Part shown: piece by piece, positions 35,171 to 54,399 of the stretch
Numbering within the stretch: the stretch's first letter is position 1
How the letters are laid out: each line of letters begins with the position of its first letter
Source: Niabella beijingensis
Lineage (GTDB): Bacteria > Bacteroidota > Bacteroidia > Chitinophagales > Chitinophagaceae
Length of the DNA stretch: 64,000 nt
Assembly (NCBI RefSeq): GCF_020034665.1
Contig: NZ_JAIQDI010000001.1
Coordinates: 3,596,001-3,660,000 of the forward strand
Direction of reading: 5' to 3'
Made by a program: the position numbers and the translations under genes
The notes under the pieces: generated by a model
The model's database searches: none
Seen by the model: the letters and a program-made list of their open reading frames with translations, nothing else
What the model was told of the DNA's origin: nothing

Positions 35171-35244
35171 TGACCCGGATTGGATTCGAACCAATGACCT
35201 ACTGCTTAGAAGGCAGTTGCTCTATCCAGCTGAGCTACCGGGCC
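35171..35244 (-). tRNA. tRNA-Arg (anticodon UCU)
   Basis: Reading the minus strand from 35244 gives a 74-base cloverleaf: 7-bp acceptor stem (GGCCCGG with CCGGGTC, one G-U pair), D arm with AGCTCAGCTGGATAGAGC, anticodon stem ACTGC/GCAGT with loop CTTCTAA (anticodon TCT), T arm ATTGG-TTCGAAT-CCAAT and discriminator A. CCA is not encoded. It decodes AGA and likely AGG. Confidence 0.95.
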
Positions 35245-35373: not shown

Positions 35374-35405
35374 TTTGCTGGTATTGTTTTTGAAATTTAT
35401 ATTTG
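35374..35405 (+). promoter_or_regulatory. trp operon promoter
   Basis: TTTG (35374-35377), 20 bases, TATATTTG (35398-35405): one base from the optimal TTTG-N19-TAnnTTTG spacing. Since the -7 box ends at 35405, transcription should start within a few bases of the leader peptide's ATG at 35412. Confidence 0.65.
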
Positions 35406-35411
35406 CTCGTC

Positions 35412-35471
35412 ATGAACTATACAAATAACAACAACTGGTGGTGGCATAGTAACTCTTTCTGGGGGCACTGA
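35412..35471 (+). CDS. trpL: trp leader peptide (attenuator peptide), 19 residues
   Basis: Short open frame encoding MNYTNNNNWWWHSNSFWGH, with Trp codons at positions 9, 10, 11 and 17 (four of 19 residues, where about 0.2 would be expected). It lies between the trp promoter and a rho-independent terminator just before trpE. Ribosome stalling at codons 9-11 when charged tRNA-Trp is scarce would leave the antiterminator (35461-35509) free; translation to the stop codon would cover its 5' side. This is the classical proteobacterial logic, seen here in a Bacteroidota genome. No Shine-Dalgarno sequence precedes it, and the transcript start is predicted almost at the ATG. Confidence 0.88.
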   Translation: MNYTNNNNWWWHSNSFWGH

Positions 35472-35509
35472 TGCTATTGTTCAATGTTGTAATAATATAG
35501 TGAAACCCC
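35461..35509 (+). promoter_or_regulatory. Antiterminator hairpin of the trp attenuator
   Basis: GGGG (35462-35465) can pair with CCCC (35506-35509), CACTG (35466-35470) with TAGTG (35498-35502, one G-U pair), and TATT (35475-35478) with AATA (35491-35494); AAA (35503-35505) is bulged. Because CCCC and AAA are also the 5' arm of the terminator, the two structures exclude each other. The leader stop codon (35469-35471) is inside the 5' arm, so a ribosome finishing the leader would block it. Confidence 0.7.
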
Positions 35510-35528
35510 GGTACCCACCGGGGTTTTT
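35503..35528 (+). terminator. Attenuator terminator upstream of trpE
   Basis: Stem AAACCCCGGT (35503-35512) with its exact complement (35517-35526), 4-base loop ACCC and a five-T run (35524-35528). It ends 22 bases before the trpE ATG and 32 bases after the leader peptide stop codon. Confidence 0.9.
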
Positions 35529-35550: not shown

Positions 35551-36969
35551 ATGCAAAAAATAAGGATTCAAACAGAAGTACAAACGTTGCTGGCAGACCT
35601 GTTTACGCCGGTGGGGATCTACCTGCGCCTGCGCGACCGCTTCCGGGACACCATCCTCCTGGAGAGCGCGGATAATAACGCTACCAACAACAGCTGGTCC
35701 TTTATAGGAGTGAATGCCATAGCGGGGATCGAAATGATCTCAGGGGATACCATCGACCTGAAATTACCGGGACAAACAGCAGAAAAGATCCGGCTTGCCG
35801 GAACTCAGAAAATTACGGAGGTCCTTGCCGATTTTATGAACCGGTTTGAAGTAGCGGAGAACAGCACGAAAGAAGCACGCTATGCGCAGGGGCTCTACGG
35901 GTATACCACCTACGATGCCATCCAGTATTTTGAGACCATCCCGGGCAGCCGGTTCAAAAACAGCAACAGCGATATTCCGCTGATGCGTTACCGCCTTTAC
36001 CAGTACATTATAGCGATCAATCATTTCCGGGATGAGCTGCTGATCCTTGAGAATAAGATCGAAGGGGTGAAAAGCGAGCGGGAAGTACTGCAATCGCTGA
36101 TCATGGGTAAGGATGTGCCGGTATATCCCTTCCGCAAAAAAGGAGCCGAAGCTTCCAATATGTCGGATGACGCACACCGCGATATGGTGCGGGCAGGGAT
36201 CGCGCACTGCCACCGGGGCGATGTGTTCCAGATCGTGCTGAGCCGCCGTTTTACACAACAGTTCACCGGTGACGAATTTAATGTCTACCGCAGCCTCAGA
36301 AGCATCAACCCATCACCCTACCTGTTCTTTTTCGATTATGGCGATTATAAACTGATGGGCTCCTCGCCGGAGTCGCAGCTGATCATCCGGCAGGGGCAGG
36401 CAACCATACACCCCATTGCGGGCACCATCCGGCGCACGGGGGATGATAAGACCGATGCGGAGCAGACAAAGACCCTGCAGGCAGACCCCAAGGAAAATGC
36501 AGAGCACGTAATGCTGGTAGACCTGGCACGCAATGACCTGAGCCGCGGCTGTGGCGATGTGCATGTGAGTCATTTTAAAGAGCCGCACTATTACTCGCAT
36601 GTCATCCACCTGGTGAGCGAGGTGAACGGTACCGTATATCCGGAAACCAGTCCCTTCGACCTGTTTGGAAAGACCTTTCCTGCGGGTACATTAAGCGGCG
36701 CACCCAAGATCAGGGCCATGGAACTGATCAGCCAGCTGGAGCCTACTGCACGGAGCTTTTATGGTGGTGCTATCGGGTTTATGGGCTTCGACGGCAGCTG
36801 TAACCAGGCCATCATGATCCGCAGCTTTTTAAGTCGCCATAATACGCTCACCTGCCAGGCCGGTGGCGGCATTGTTGCGGCCAGCAACCCGGAAGGCGAA
36901 CTGCAGGAAGTGAACAATAAACTCGGGGCTTTAAAAAAGGCGATCGTTGAGGCTGAAAAGATACTGTAA
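35551..36969 (+). CDS. trpE: Anthranilate synthase component I
   Basis: First step of tryptophan synthesis: chorismate plus ammonia (from TrpG) to anthranilate. The 472-residue protein carries the N-terminal feedback-inhibition motif LLES (about residues 31-34), the partner NPSPYLFF (about 252-259), and the chorismate-binding C-terminal core (PIAGTIRRTGDDKTDAEQ, LVDLARNDLSR, FPAGTLSGAPKIRAMELI as positions about 290-390). Standard length. It is the first structural gene of trpEGDCF, behind the leader-peptide attenuator, so it should be controlled both by tryptophan binding to the enzyme and by attenuation. Confidence 0.97.
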   Translation: MQKIRIQTEVQTLLADLFTPVGIYLRLRDRFRDTILLESADNNATNNSWSFIGVNAIAGIEMISGDTIDLKLPGQTAEKIRLAGTQKITEVLADFMNRFEVAENSTKEARYAQGLYGYTTYDAIQYFETIPGSRFKNSNSDIPLMRYRLYQYIIAINHFRDELLILENKIEGVKSEREVLQSLIMGKDVPVYPFRKKGAEASNMSDDAHRDMVRAGIAHCHRGDVFQIVLSRRFTQQFTGDEFNVYRSLRSINPSPYLFFFDYGDYKLMGSSPESQLIIRQGQATIHPIAGTIRRTGDDKTDAEQTKTLQADPKENAEHVMLVDLARNDLSRGCGDVHVSHFKEPHYYSHVIHLVSEVNGTVYPETSPFDLFGKTFPAGTLSGAPKIRAMELISQLEPTARSFYGGAIGFMGFDGSCNQAIMIRSFLSRHNTLTCQAGGGIVAASNPEGELQEVNNKLGALKKAIVEAEKIL

Positions 36970-37133: not shown

Positions 37134-37703
37134 ATGAAACTATTGGTTTTCGATAATTACGATTCATTTACCTACAACCTGGTACACATGGTGGAAAAGA
37201 TCCTGCATCAGAAAGTGGATGTGTACCGGAACGACCAGCTGCCGCTGGAAGAAGTGAAACAATATGATAAGATCATCCTGTCTCCGGGACCGGGTATTCC
37301 GGTGGAATCCGGGCTGTTGCTGCCGCTGATCCGTGAATATGCTGCCACCAAATCCATACTGGGTGTGTGTTTGGGACAACAGGCCATCGGTGAGGTCTTT
37401 GGCGGTACGCTGTACAACCTTCCCAACGTGTATCACGGAGTAGCCACCAACTGCAATATCATCCGGCGCAGTGGTAACCTGTTTACGGACATGCCGGATC
37501 AGTTTGAGATCGGCCGCTATCATTCCTGGGTGGTCTCCCGTGAAAATTTTCCGGAGGAGCTGGAAATAACGGCAGTGGACGACCAGGATATGATCATGGG
37601 CCTGCGGCATAAGACCTACGATGTACAGGGCGTACAGTTTCACCCGGAAAGTGTACTGACCCCGATGGGCGAGACCATCATACGGAACTGGCTGACGAAC
37701 TGA
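37134..37703 (+). CDS. trpG: Anthranilate synthase component II (glutamine amidotransferase)
   Basis: Class I glutamine amidotransferase that supplies ammonia to TrpE. The 189-residue protein has the catalytic triad: nucleophile Cys79 in GVCLGQQAIG, His170 and Glu172 in FHPES near the C-terminus, and the oxyanion segment SPGPGIP (about 50-56). It is a single-domain subunit, separate from TrpD. The 164-base gap before and 133-base gap after it each hold one copy of an intergenic repeat in opposite orientations. Confidence 0.96.
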   Translation: MKLLVFDNYDSFTYNLVHMVEKILHQKVDVYRNDQLPLEEVKQYDKIILSPGPGIPVESGLLLPLIREYAATKSILGVCLGQQAIGEVFGGTLYNLPNVYHGVATNCNIIRRSGNLFTDMPDQFEIGRYHSWVVSRENFPEELEITAVDDQDMIMGLRHKTYDVQGVQFHPESVLTPMGETIIRNWLTN

Positions 37704-37778: not shown

Positions 37779-37819
37779 AAGTGTGCGACGCAAGACGGCC
37801 CGGCCTTGTACCGCAGCCG
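37779..37819 (-). repeat. Intergenic repeat, copy 2 (trpG-trpD gap)
   Basis: Reverse-oriented partner of the unit at 36983-37023 (29 of 41 identical; AAGTGTGCGACGCAA at 37779-37793 is an exact complement of 37009-37023). In the trp message the two could pair across trpG. Confidence 0.7.
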
Positions 37820-37836
37820 GCACAAAAAATAAAACA

Positions 37837-38829
37837 ATGAAGAAGATATTAACCCTTTTATTTGAACACAAAAATCTTGACAGGGCAACAGCAAAGGAAG
37901 TGCTGGTGAATATCGGCAAGGGTGTTTATAACGAGCATGAGGTGACCGCCTTTATGACGGTGTACCTGATGCGCAGCATTACCCTGCAGGAGTTACAGGG
38001 TTTCCAGGAAGCACTGCTGGAACTTTGTCTGCCCATGGAATTTGAGGGAATGGACACGATCGATATCGTGGGTACCGGGGGCGATGGAAAGAATACGTTT
38101 AATATCTCCACACTTTCCTGTTTTATTGTGGCCGGAACCGGGAATAAAGTGACCAAACACGGCAACTATGGTGCGTCCACCATCAGCGGGTCTTCCAATG
38201 TGGTGGAGTCGATGGGCTATAAATTCAAAAATGACAATGCGGCGCTGCGGCGTGAGCTGGAGGAAGCCAATATCTGTTTTCTGCATGCGCCATTGTTTCA
38301 CCCGGCGTTAAAAAATGTAGGCCCGATCCGTAAGAACCTGGGTATGCGCACGTTTTTTAATATGCTGGGACCACTGGTAAACCCGGCGTTCCCTACATTC
38401 AGCATCATCGGCGTATACAACCTGGAAATGGCCCGGTTGTACAATTACCTGATGCAGCAGCAGTCGAAGAACTTTGCAATTGTGCATGGACTGGATGGCT
38501 ATGATGAGATTTCCCTGACGGGCGACTCCAAAGTAATTACAGCAACGGGCGAACAGGTATTTGCTGCTACAGAGCTGGGTGGGATGGAGGTGGTACCGGA
38601 AGTCATCAAAGGTGGTGATACGATCGAAGCTGCCGCAACGATCTTTTCGGATATCATCCAGGCAAAGGGAACCCCGCAACAGGAGGCGGTAGTACTGGCC
38701 AATGCGGCTGTAGCCTTGCAGGTAACAGGTGTTTATCCCGATTATACAGAGGCTTTTGAAGCAGCCAAAGAAAGCCTCCGGTCGGGCCGCGCCTACCAAT
38801 GCCTGCAAAAACTGATCGCATTGCAGTAG
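37837..38829 (+). CDS. trpD: Anthranilate phosphoribosyltransferase
   Basis: Transfers phosphoribose from PRPP to anthranilate. The 330-residue protein has the PRPP-binding GTGGDGKNTFNIST motif (residues 79-92), the KHGNYGASTISGSS stretch (about 107-120) and the RKNLGMRTFFNMLGPLVNP segment. The frame is open back to 37783, but the ATG at 37837 (MKKILTLLFEHKNLD) gives the normal N-terminus; the longer start would take in part of the upstream repeat. Third enzyme gene in trpEGDCF. Confidence 0.96.
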   Translation: MKKILTLLFEHKNLDRATAKEVLVNIGKGVYNEHEVTAFMTVYLMRSITLQELQGFQEALLELCLPMEFEGMDTIDIVGTGGDGKNTFNISTLSCFIVAGTGNKVTKHGNYGASTISGSSNVVESMGYKFKNDNAALRRELEEANICFLHAPLFHPALKNVGPIRKNLGMRTFFNMLGPLVNPAFPTFSIIGVYNLEMARLYNYLMQQQSKNFAIVHGLDGYDEISLTGDSKVITATGEQVFAATELGGMEVVPEVIKGGDTIEAAATIFSDIIQAKGTPQQEAVVLANAAVALQVTGVYPDYTEAFEAAKESLRSGRAYQCLQKLIALQ

Positions 38830-38902
38830 GGGCTATCAGCTATCAGTCATCAGCAGGAGAGAGGTCCTCATCTCAATTCTCAATTCTCAAATCGCAAACC
38901 CC

Positions 38903-38941
38903 AAATCCCATCCCGATAACTATCGGGACCCAAGTCTCAAA
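38903..38941. repeat. Dispersed palindromic repeat, copy 2 (trpD-trpC gap)
   Basis: Contains TCCCGATAACTATCGGGA (38911-38928) and matches the reverse complement of 14968-15006 at 34 of 39 positions. It is preceded by short tandem-like words (CTATCAG-type at 38832-38850 and TCTCAAT-type at 38872-38886). Confidence 0.8.
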
Positions 38942-38948
38942 AAACGAT

Positions 38949-39737
38949 ATGAATATTCTTGATACGATCATCGAACAGAAACGGATAGAAGTTGCGGAGC
39001 GCAAGGCACAAACCTCCATCCGGCAACTGGAGCACACGGAGGCATTCAGCCGGTCGGTACGTTCACTGGCGGCCTCCCTGCAGCAGCCGGGGAGCACGGG
39101 GATCATTGCCGAGTTTAAACGAAAATCGCCTTCCAAAGGATTTATCAATAAAGATGCGGATGTGACAGCAATCACGGAAGCGTATACAAAATACGGAGCC
39201 GCTGCATTATCCGTGCTGACTGACGGTCCTTTTTTTGGTGGTTCCTTTGCTGATCTTACCGCTGCCCGCAAAAATGATATTCCGATCCTGCGTAAGGATT
39301 TTATTATTGATGAATACCAGATCGTGGAAGCACGGTCGGTAGGCGCGGATGTGATCCTGCTGATCGCTGCCTGTCTTACCCCCGCTGAAGTGGAACGGCT
39401 GGCCTTGTTTGCCGCCTCACTCGGGCTGGAGACGATCCTGGAATTACATGCCGGAGCGGAGCTGGAACATATTTGCGATGCTACAAAGATCGTGGGGATC
39501 AATAACCGGGATCTGAAAACGTTTTCTGTGGACCTCGAGCGCAGTCTGAAAATGGCGGAAAAGATACCGGATGATAAGCTGAAAATCGCTGAGAGCGGTA
39601 TTGATAAAATTGAAGACATTCTTTTGTTCCGCCGGAACGGCTTTAAAGGATTTCTGATCGGCGAATATTTTATGCGCCAGGAAAACCCGCCTGTGGCATT
39701 TGCCGGTTTTGTAAACAACTTAACTACAAAAGCATGA
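38949..39737 (+). CDS. trpC: Indole-3-glycerol phosphate synthase
   Basis: Closes the indole ring of CdRP to form indole-3-glycerol phosphate. The 262-residue (beta/alpha)8 protein has AEFKRKSPSKG (residues 54-64) including the catalytic Lys and Glu, FIIDEYQIVEAR (about 120) and IAESGI (about 217). The ATG at 38949 follows a repeat-containing gap; an in-frame upstream extension to 38799 overlaps trpD and the repeat and is rejected. Its stop overlaps the trpF start by four bases. Confidence 0.96.
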   Translation: MNILDTIIEQKRIEVAERKAQTSIRQLEHTEAFSRSVRSLAASLQQPGSTGIIAEFKRKSPSKGFINKDADVTAITEAYTKYGAAALSVLTDGPFFGGSFADLTAARKNDIPILRKDFIIDEYQIVEARSVGADVILLIAACLTPAEVERLALFAASLGLETILELHAGAELEHICDATKIVGINNRDLKTFSVDLERSLKMAEKIPDDKLKIAESGIDKIEDILLFRRNGFKGFLIGEYFMRQENPPVAFAGFVNNLTTKA

Positions 39738-40366
39738 CCCGTCCCCTGATCAAAGTATGTGGTATGACGCAGCTGCAACAGGTGGCACAACTGGCCGCAA
39801 TGGGGGTGGACTATGCAGGGTTTATTTTTTATCCGCCTTCTCCGAGATATATTGGCGGCAACATCGATCCGGCGGCACTGAAACGGCTGAACGGTATTAA
39901 AAAGGCGGGGGTATTTGTAAATGCCACAGTGGAAGAAGTATTGGATGCGGTGGCGGCCTATGGTCTGGATATGATACAGCTGCATGGTGATGAAACACCG
40001 GAGCTTTGTAGCCGGCTGAAGAACGCGGCAGAAATTGTAAAAGTATTCCGCATAACCGGTAAGGAAGACCTGAAGCAACTGACCTCCCCCTATACGGATG
40101 TCGCCGATGCATTCCTGTTTGATACAAAAGCAAAGGAATACGGCGGTACAGGAAAAAAATTCGACTGGTCCGGACTGCAACATGCAGAACCAGGTGTACC
40201 GTATTTTTTAAGCGGAGGTATTGGTCCGGATGACCTGGAAGAACTGAAGGCTTTTCTTACAGCCAATACGGTCCATGCCCTGGATGTAAACAGTAAGTTT
40301 GAGACGGCACCGGGGATAAAGGATATCCGGTTGCTGGAGCATTTTTTGAACCGCCTCCACGGCTGA
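39734..40366 (+). CDS. trpF: Phosphoribosylanthranilate isomerase
   Basis: Converts phosphoribosylanthranilate to CdRP. The 210-residue protein starts with IKVCGM (catalytic Cys near residue 9), has the GFIFYPPSPRYI stretch (about 30-41) and LFDTK with the second catalytic Asp (about 133). Overlaps trpC by four bases (ATGA), indicating translational coupling. Last gene of trpEGDCF; trpBA is 12 kb downstream. Confidence 0.95.
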   Translation: MTRPLIKVCGMTQLQQVAQLAAMGVDYAGFIFYPPSPRYIGGNIDPAALKRLNGIKKAGVFVNATVEEVLDAVAAYGLDMIQLHGDETPELCSRLKNAAEIVKVFRITGKEDLKQLTSPYTDVADAFLFDTKAKEYGGTGKKFDWSGLQHAEPGVPYFLSGGIGPDDLEELKAFLTANTVHALDVNSKFETAPGIKDIRLLEHFLNRLHG

Positions 40367-52227: not shown

Positions 52228-52403
52228 GTTTACCGCTTTTTGTGATCTGTGTCCTAAATATACATCAGAATGGGAGGGCCTGCAAAAATTGTTTTGCACA
52301 ATGGGGTACAGCGTTCAGTCTCATTACATTGGCAAACAGGACCGGATTATACACCCATTTCTTGTATCTTTACGCCTCACCAAAAAGTACAGGGGTAAAT
52401 AAA

Positions 52404-53603
52404 ATGCAGGCATCATATAAGGAACCGGATGAGCAGGGATATTATGGAGAATTTGGAGGCGCTTATATTCCGGAAATGTTGTATCGGAATGTGGAAGAAC
52501 TGCGGGAAAACTATCTTAAGATCATAGCCGACCCGGCTTTTCAGAAAGAATACCATTTGTTGCTGACCGACTATGCCGGCCGGGAAACCCCGCTGTATTA
52601 TGCAGGACGCCTGAGTCAGAAGTACGGCACCAATGTCTATTTAAAGCGGGAGGATCTTTGTCATACCGGAGCACATAAGGTAAACAATACTATCGGTCAG
52701 ATACTGGTGGCAGAGCGCCTTGGGAAAAAACGCATTATTGCAGAAACAGGTGCCGGGCAACATGGTGTGGCCACTGCCACCGTATGTGCCTTGAAGGGCC
52801 TGGAGTGCATCGTATACATGGGGGAGAAAGATATCGAGCGCCAGGCACCGAATGTAGCAAGGATGAAGATGCTGGGTGCCACCGTGATCCCGGCAAAAAG
52901 CGGTAGCAAAACGCTTAAGGATGCCACCAACGAGGCGATCCGGGACTGGATCAATAACCCGAACGATACTTTTTACATCATCGGAAGTGTGGTGGGACCC
53001 CATCCTTATCCGGATATGGTGGCCCGCTTCCAGAGCGTGATCAGCAAAGAGATCAGGGCACAGCTGGCGGAAAAGACGGGATCGGAACTGCCGGCCGCTG
53101 TTATCGCCTGTGTAGGCGGAGGCAGCAATGCTGCAGGAACCTTTTATCATTTCCTGGATGAACCTGCTGTTGCCATCTACGCCGTGGAAGCAGCCGGATG
53201 TGGCATCGATACCGATAAAAGCGCAGCGGCCACGCAGCTGGGAAAACCCGGGATTTTACATGGCAGCAGAAGCTACCTGATGCAGACGGAAGACGGACAG
53301 GTGGAAGAACCCTATAGCATTTCTGCGGGGCTTGACTATCCCGGCATCGGGCCCATGCACGCCAACCTGTTTGTGACCGGCAGGGGCAATTTTTTAAATG
53401 CAACGGACGAAGAGGCACTCCAGGCCGCTTTTGAACTGGCGGAACTGGAGGGGATCATCCCGGCGCTGGAAAGCGCGCACGCCCTGGCGGCACTCAATAA
53501 GATCCGGTTTGCAAAAGAAGACAATGTTGTCGTTTGTCTGAGCGGACGCGGCGATAAGGACATGGAAACCTACATGCGCTACATGGACAGGCATTCAAAA
53601 TAA
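52404..53603 (+). CDS. trpB: Tryptophan synthase beta chain
   Basis: Condenses indole and serine to tryptophan with pyridoxal phosphate. The 399-residue protein has the PLP lysine Lys92 in [15 protein letters not shown], the phosphate-binding GGGSNAAG (about 234-241) and the [10 protein letters not shown] stretch. The frame extends upstream to 52242, but the ATG at 52404 ([15 protein letters not shown]) is the normal N-terminus. No Trp-rich leader or terminator precedes it, so unlike trpE it is not attenuated in an obvious way. It is followed 25 bases later by trpA. Confidence 0.97.
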
Positions 53604-53628
53604 ACAGCACTTAAGAAGAGGATCGATC

Positions 53629-54399
53629 ATGACAAGACTGAAGCAACTATTTGAACAAAAGCAGCAGCAGGTGCTGAATGTATATTGTACCGCCGGTTTC
53701 CCCCAGGTTGACAGCACACTGGCGGTTATGGAAGCACTGCAGCAGAACGGAGCGGATATCATCGAACTGGGGATGCCCTACAGCGATCCGCTTGCAGATG
53801 GGGAAGTGATCCAGAGCAGCAGCACGATCGCTTTAAAAGCGGGAATGACCATCTCCCGGCTGTTTGAACAACTGAAGCCCATGCGTACCCGGATTCAGAT
53901 ACCCGTGGTACTGATGGGATATATGAACCCGGTATTGCAATACGGTTTTGAGAAATTTTGCGCAGATGCAGCAGCGGCCGGTGTCGACGGACTCATCCTC
54001 CCGGATCTGCCTCCCTTTGAATTTGAAGCAACTTATAAGTCCATTGTAGATCGTCACGGACTTGATTTTATATTCCTTGTTACACCTGAAACATCCGAAG
54101 CCCGTGTACGTAAGCTGGATGCACTGAGCAGTGGGTTCCTTTATGCGGTATCCTCTTCATCAACAACCGGCAATGAAAAAGATTTTTCTGCAGTTGAACA
54201 ATACCTGGAACGCCTGGCCGGTTACAACCTGAGCAATCCGGTACTGGTAGGTTTCGGAATAAAGGATCATGAAACCTTTTCCAGGGCCTGCCGTTTCTCC
54301 AACGGAGCAATCATTGGTTCGGCCTTTATAAAAGCATTGGAAGGGCAAACAGACATTCCCGGTGCTACCGGAAAATTTATTAAAACGGTATTGGGATAA
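53629..54399 (+). CDS. trpA: Tryptophan synthase alpha chain
   Basis: Cleaves indole-3-glycerol phosphate to indole and glyceraldehyde 3-phosphate and passes indole to TrpB. The 256-residue TIM barrel has the catalytic Glu46 in ELGMPYSDPLADG and Asp57 in the same stretch, and the phosphate-binding GFGIKD region (about 205-210). 25 bases after trpB; together a trpBA operon separated from trpEGDCF by 12 kb. Confidence 0.96.
   Translation: MTRLKQLFEQKQQQVLNVYCTAGFPQVDSTLAVMEALQQNGADIIELGMPYSDPLADGEVIQSSSTIALKAGMTISRLFEQLKPMRTRIQIPVVLMGYMNPVLQYGFEKFCADAAAAGVDGLILPDLPPFEFEATYKSIVDRHGLDFIFLVTPETSEARVRKLDALSSGFLYAVSSSSTTGNEKDFSAVEQYLERLAGYNLSNPVLVGFGIKDHETFSRACRFSNGAIIGSAFIKALEGQTDIPGATGKFIKTVLG

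Follow-up and report, generated by a model that had tools for sequence, protein, structure and literature searches.

A probable ribosome-mediated tryptophan attenuator upstream of trpE in Niabella beijingensis, with counterparts across the Bacteroidota

Results

The trp genes and the leader that precedes them

The window (the whole stretch of 64,000 nucleotides of Niabella beijingensis that was analysed) carries the tryptophan biosynthetic genes trpE-trpG-trpD-trpC-trpF. They lie directly downstream of a short open reading frame (ORF) containing a run of Trp codons, so that this leader adjoins its cognate biosynthetic genes (Table 1). For both trpD and trpC, the true start is probably located inside the ORF given in the table. 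The trpB and trpA genes, each of which passes a model cut-off, are found at 52242-54399, with other genes filling the roughly 12 kb between them and trpEGDCF. On the other side, a divergent tRNA gene occupies 35171-35244 on the minus strand, about 170 bases 5' of the leader ORF.

Table 1. Features of the trp leader and of the genes downstream, in window coordinates
Feature	Coordinates	Strand	Evidence
TTTG, -33 promoter element (final G at -33 if +1 is 35410)	35374..35377	+	Sequence; consensus from PMC6847099, PMC7366714
TATATTTG, -7 promoter element	35398..35405	+	Sequence; register from PMC9723704, PMC6847099
Predicted transcription start, 2 nt 5' of the leader AUG	35410..35410	+	Inferred from the box register
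Leader ORF, 19 codons, MNYTNNNNWWWHSNSFWGH, followed by the stop codon	35412..35471	+	Sequence
Protector hairpin (predicted), masking GGGG 35461-35464 in a leader free of ribosomes	35428..35490	+	Minimum-energy folds
Three adjacent Trp codons (codons 9-11), proposed stall site	35436..35444	+	Sequence; conservation
Antiterminator strand CUGGGG (predicted)	35459..35464	+	Fold with upstream RNA omitted; GGGG conserved
Intrinsic terminator, 10-bp stem 35503-35512/35517-35526, T-run 35524-35528	35503..35528	+	Complementarity
CCCCGG of the terminator 5' arm, pairing with 35459-35464	35506..35511	+	Fold
trpE, anthranilate synthase component I	35551..36969	+	Best NCBIfam model TIGR00564, 403.2 bits, below cut-off 517.7
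trpG	37134..37703	+	TIGR00566, 162 bits, above cut-off; other models score higher but below their own cut-offs
trpD	37783..38829	+	TIGR01245, 294.9 bits, above cut-off, from residue 26
trpC	38799..39737	+	NF001377, 276.8 bits, above cut-off, from residue 51
trpF	39734..40366	+	Best model NF002298, 167.3 bits, below cut-off 215

A preliminary description of this DNA had proposed a 19-codon leader with Trp-Trp-Trp and one further Trp, and its coordinates and translation were confirmed, the Trp codons being found at 35436, 35439, 35442 and 35460. The fourth of these was set aside as a control codon because it is not conserved in the loci compared.

The leader folds better than all of 200 dinucleotide-shuffled versions of itself (200/200, z -4.18). 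In the place where a 10-bp terminator had been described, fully complementary arms were indeed found (100% over 10 nt, with a loop of 4 nt), together with a short U-run of five residues, three of which lie within the stem. This site was not among the matches of a simple terminator scan. The antiterminator, previously drawn as 35461-35509, turned out to be the G4:C4 core (35461-35464/35506-35509) of a 6-bp helix, 35459-35464/35506-35511. When the RNA 5' of 35450 is omitted, as for a stalled ribosome, and the terminator 3' arm has not yet been made, this helix is part of the minimum-energy fold. The pairing of the 5' arm with upstream RNA was then 0.67 with a stalled ribosome, 0.01 with no ribosome and 0.03 with a ribosome at the stop codon, the shuffled mean being 0.59; since 23% of the shuffles pair the 5' arm equally well, the antiterminator of the window alone is not proven by energy. 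The geometry agrees with that proposed earlier.

Conservation of the Trp leader in relatives

Related loci were collected by TrpE searches in two sets. The first comprised 59 related genomes, including that of the window, 58 of which gave a match and from which 30 loci were kept; the second was a named collection, from which the best 80 of 592 relatives among the candidates were taken, giving 110 loci in all. Loci L001-L027, L031-L052 and L060, grouped by kinship and labels, are called Chitinophagaceae-type below.

A short ORF with adjacent Trp codons was present within 350 nt of trpE in 28 of the first 30 loci. Over the 110 loci, a script that searched up to 520 nt before trpE for ORFs with two or more adjacent Trp codons returned 101, of which three (L028, L068 and L082) were dropped by eye as chance, leaving 98. 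When the sequence further upstream was inspected for eight loci with no convincing leader, five of them showed a WWW leader and a hairpin before trpB. Leaders with two or more adjacent Trp codons were thus observed in 103 of the 110 loci, 98 before trpE and 5 before trpB. The five loci of the latter kind (L063, L068, L074, L077 and L101) are Bacteroidales-type and include records of Bacteroides fragilis, B. finegoldii and B. timonensis. In these loci trpB, recognised by its resemblance to the trpB of the window, precedes trpE; the leader goes with the first gene.

No leader was seen in L071, L092 and L110, even further upstream; L028 has no Trp leader, and L062 offers only 5 nt of upstream sequence. 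In L082, the leader peptide reads WSWRW. A bin labelled Chitinophaga (L050) retains a similar leader some 134 bases ahead of trpE, with GGGG, a terminator and one Trp codon (MNRNYTNNGWHFISDKG); it is possibly a decaying or weakened attenuator.

A short ORF containing WWW was found in 91 of 109 loci when up to 450 nt preceding trpE were scanned. None occurred in the 109 reverse complements or in 110 downstream windows, and 20 shuffled sets gave a mean of 0.0. For two adjacent Trp codons the count was 100/109, versus 2 in the reverse complements, 1.1 in the shuffled sets and 5 in the downstream windows. Furthermore, a terminator was located 21-55 nt 3' of the leader stop in 94 of the 98 loci, a count in which the script mis-drew the terminator of the window itself; the latter was set by hand for the hairpin-swap and fold tests described below. 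The script found no terminator in L026, L046, L084 and L096, and a hairpin is visible by eye in L026 and L084.

A covariance model built from 36 Chitinophagaceae-type leaders matched 140 of 195 genomes of the family and 77 of 101 genera at E values of at most 0.001, counts that include some of the genomes that supplied the model. Many of the weakest matches, where several share one genome, are probably due to chance. In the genome of the window, the model matched one site only.

Promoter and predicted transcription start

The promoter consensus of the Bacteroidota is TTTG/TAnnTTTG (PMC6847099, PMC7366714), and elements resembling both parts are found upstream of the leader ORF (Table 1). As the TAnnTTTG box is placed at -12 to -5 in this phylum (PMC9723704, PMC6847099), the box of the window predicts that transcription starts at 35410. 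The ATG being so near the promoter, the leader mRNA is probably nearly leaderless, and the leader ORF would then be translated from an RNA with a predicted 5' UTR of 2 nt.

A box matching in 5 or more of the 6 letters and no further than 40 nt away was present in 45 of 48 Chitinophagaceae-type loci. In the other lineages, the spacing of 4-8 nt between box and ATG was observed in 11 of 25 Flavobacteriales, in all 5 Sphingobacteriales and in 4 of the 19 others.

The same attenuator could instead have an ordinary 5' UTR, in which case the transcription start would lie a good distance upstream of the AUG and the promoter-like box near it would be incidental. Published figures speak for this, leaderless mRNAs being rare in the phylum: they amount to 5.5% in Flavobacterium psychrophilum (PMC9723704), 5' UTRs shorter than 10 nt to about 3.7% in Bacteroides thetaiotaomicron (PMC7366714), and in F. 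johnsoniae 87% of the predicted transcripts have a leader longer than 10 nt (PMC6847099). A sequence-based survey, which considered Pribnow-like promoters only, found one genome with leaderless genes among 37 of Bacteroidetes/Chlorobi (PMC3160421). In addition, many leaders of Flavobacteriales and other groups start 12-32 nt past the box. However, 41 of 48 Chitinophagaceae-type loci have the box 4-8 nt before a leader ATG, as against 89 of 2552 other ATGs (3.5%), the smallest spacing being counted where a leader has several in-frame ATGs. Moreover, among the 45 Chitinophagaceae-type loci with a box, 42 have a TTG at the correct distance, around -33, versus 85 of 630 background windows. An ordinary 5' UTR is consequently regarded as rather unlikely, and the nearly leaderless start is retained as the preferred reading.

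Alternative pairing across lineages

In the Chitinophagaceae-type loci, the leader tail contains GGGG in 41 of 49 cases (40 counted, and L018, in which the arm core was missed by the script). In the 40 usable loci of the 49, the first Trp codon is followed at 21-27 nt by GGGG, which lies 10-12 nt ahead of the last base of the stop codon and whose partner in the terminator is CCCC or a variant in which U replaces C. The GGGG occurs in two reading frames (GGG GTN or CGG GGN); thus, it seems to be the RNA that is kept.

The helices of the other lineages are made of different letters. In Sphingobacterium (L086), AGCATCGGG is paired with CCCGATGCT, and in Chryseobacterium (L056-L058), GTCGGGTCT is paired with AGACTTTGAC, with a bulge. 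In Flavobacterium, GTCGTGA, in most loci with the stop codon included, pairs with TCACGAC in the loop and 3' arm of the terminator, while a stretch that follows GTCGTGA pairs with the 5' arm. This wiring, which is unlike that of the window, was seen in L066, L067, L070, L075, L085, L097, L098 (a variant), L102 and L103.

The match between leader tail and terminator hairpin was measured by swapping. For 94 loci, the tail of each leader was compared with its own hairpin and with the hairpins of loci with which it shares no 7-mer. The own tail ranked in the best 10% of swaps for 35 of the 94 loci (9.4 expected) and in the best 5% for 25 (4.7 expected). After the loci had been collapsed to 28 clusters, the corresponding figures were 10 (2.8 expected) and 8. 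The reverse swap, in which the own hairpin was set against the tails of other loci, gave a weaker signal (26/94 in the best 10% and 15/94 in the best 5%). Comparison of the tail with the terminator 5' arm alone, in which the mis-drawn terminator of the window was still used, was weak (19/94 in the best 10%) and was superseded by the comparison with the whole hairpin.

The leaders were also folded with the terminator 3' arm unmade and with the ribosome stalled at the first Trp codon, absent, or at the stop codon, 30 shuffles being made per locus. For 47 Chitinophagaceae-type loci, the median pairing of the 5' arm with upstream RNA was 0.77 in the stalled state, 0.26 without ribosome and 0.18 at the stop, the shuffled value being 0.54. 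For 47 other loci, the medians were 0.64, 0.45 and 0.18, with 0.52 for the shuffled sequences. Part of the drop in pairing at the stop codon is trivial, as less RNA remains to pair with. Stalled pairing exceeded the shuffle mean in 46/47 Chitinophagaceae-type loci and 41/47 others, and it exceeded untranslated pairing in 44/47 and 42/47, respectively. The loci that beat 90% of their own 30 shuffles numbered 26 of 47 in the Chitinophagaceae-type group and 11 of 47 in the other.

By the swap measures, the same antiterminator logic is kept across the relatives. The trpL-like logic put forward in the preliminary description is supported, the Trp codons, a terminator and their spacing being kept in most of the loci examined across the phylum and the alternative pairing recurring with different letters in other lineages. 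The covariation of the antiterminator flanks was not significant in the Chitinophagaceae-type loci (40 of 49 usable, 38 after deduplication; joint p 0.06-0.18). As for the core, it is invariant and could not show covariation, because GGGG served as the anchor.

These observations also bear on the idea that the ORF encodes a small Trp-rich peptide with a function of its own, the RNA structures being incidental. The stretch WWWHTNS is fairly conserved among the Chitinophagaceae-type loci, and the peTrpL peptide of Sinorhizobium acts in trans (PMC7298713). Outside the Trp run, however, the peptide varies between lineages; the GGGG run occurs in two frames, and a terminator follows the leader in nearly all loci. 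A peptide function as the whole explanation is therefore considered very improbable; a role of the leader peptide in trans is compatible with attenuation, and the two could coexist.

There is hardly any more room for another sensor (a T-box, a riboswitch or an RNA-binding protein) or for a plain terminator acting without ribosome stalling, which would account for the terminator present between promoter and trpE but would leave the run of Trp codons unexplained. In the Rfam search of the window, only a tRNA located elsewhere reached the gathering score, and the five matches at the leader were weak (E up to 1; the best, STnc180, with 28.6 of 50 bits), none of them being of the T-box or riboswitch type.

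Other candidate leaders in the same genome

Four other candidate leaders, picked by eye, were observed in the genome of the window: a His leader before hisG (MKVLAHIHHHVTDLPV; L111, minus strand), an Ile/Val leader before ilvD (MTGNFNTGSFFSRNIIVVIVSVILHQNGGGYII; L112), a Phe/Tyr leader before a prephenate dehydratase gene (MKATKFYTWFYFSFFFFSGKPGAFLLN; L117, minus strand) and a Thr leader before thrA (MEYNFKNIQSILSFSIETTTTITTTP; L118). A hairpin with a T-run was observed after the his, ilv and phe candidates; the thr candidate is weak. The distance between ATG and box is 19 nt for the ilv candidate and 10 nt for the phe candidate; in the scan of the leaders of this genome, no promoter box was listed for the his and thr candidates. 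It may be that this organism uses attenuation as a general strategy.

Discussion

Ribosome-mediated attenuation is a classical mechanism. In the trpL region of enteric Gammaproteobacteria, which has an Rfam family, a leader ORF with Trp codons is combined with protector, antiterminator and terminator helices before the trp genes. The locus of the window resembles enteric trpL in its Trp-codon leader ORF, in its terminator and predicted protector and antiterminator helices, and in its position directly before trp genes. It differs in that there is no match to an Rfam family at the gathering score, in that the leader ORF is predicted to begin about 2 nt from the 5' end and has no Shine-Dalgarno site, and in that the putative antiterminator strand and the 3' end of the leader ORF overlap.

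With the caveats given above, the putative attenuator has the defining features of the trpL type that can be read from a sequence. By far the best explanation, which we hold with high confidence, is that the leader is a ribosome-mediated, trpL-type transcription attenuator controlling trpE-trpG-trpD-trpC-trpF. According to this model, when charged tRNA-Trp is scarce, the ribosome would stall at codons 9-11 and open the protector hairpin, and CUGGGG would be freed. The free strand would capture the terminator 5' arm before the 3' arm exists, and RNA polymerase would continue into trpE. When tryptophan is plentiful, the ribosome would reach the stop codon and cover CUGGGG, so that the terminator would form. 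In the absence of translation, CUGGGG would be hidden by the protector hairpin and the terminator would be expected to form too.

The view, expressed in the preliminary description, that such attenuation is established in Proteobacteria holds, but the mechanism is not confined to them, as a Streptomyces case is in print and there are clues in Flavobacterium. In the alphaproteobacterium Sinorhizobium meliloti, the trpL transcript starts with the ATG of the leader ORF, whose 14-aa peptide has roles in trans (PMC7298713). Both systems would be trp attenuators with a start at or next to the leader ATG; the start is mapped in S. meliloti, whereas that of the window is predicted and leaves 2 nt before the AUG. 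In Streptomyces lividans, TrpL1 is a leaderless 18-aa leader with NWWW before trpE, and hairpins and a uridine-rich stretch follow (PMC8079986). The window likewise has a leader with NWWW before trpE, probably nearly leaderless and followed by hairpins and a uridine-rich stretch; S. lividans is, however, an Actinobacterium with another promoter type, and its trpE is monocistronic.

Within the Bacteroidota, structured 5' regions with clues to leader peptides have been described before amino-acid operons of F. psychrophilum, pheA and hisG being among the conserved elements; the passages on these regions give no mechanism, and the word 'tryptophan' does not occur in the main text (PMC9723704). 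This species belongs to the phylum of the window, and the Flavobacterium trp leaders analysed here wire their antiterminator differently. Short leader-like ORFs are also mentioned for B. thetaiotaomicron (PMC7366714). Among the literature matches listed, none describes a trp attenuator of Bacteroidota; a 2010 survey of amino-acid attenuation (Lopatovskaya and others) may contain one.

Taken together, the data incline us, with some reserve, towards a family of trp attenuators that is phylum-wide, absent from Rfam and of early-Bacteroidota origin, with an antiterminator rewired by lineage and with a nearly leaderless form in Chitinophagaceae. On this somewhat favoured reading, the Trp run and the geometry would have been kept while the partner of the antiterminator changed. 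The partner would be the terminator 5' arm in Chitinophagaceae and in some Sphingobacteriales and Chryseobacterium; in Flavobacteriaceae and some others, it would rather be the loop and the 3' arm, with the 5' arm also taking part. For Chitinophagaceae, we slightly prefer the view that ribosomes enter the attenuator by starting at a 5'-terminal AUG, these bacteria making no use of Shine-Dalgarno sequences.

For the Bacteroidota, gut Bacteroides included, this analysis offers a concrete and testable mechanism for the control of tryptophan synthesis, at a site left unlabelled by the Rfam search. The loci also form a large natural set of variants of a single attenuator that share the codon run but have different helices. 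If the nearly leaderless start is true, this would be the third lineage, after the rhizobium and Streptomyces, with a trp leader beginning at the RNA 5' end or immediately beside it; this would suggest that the arrangement is useful for attenuation.
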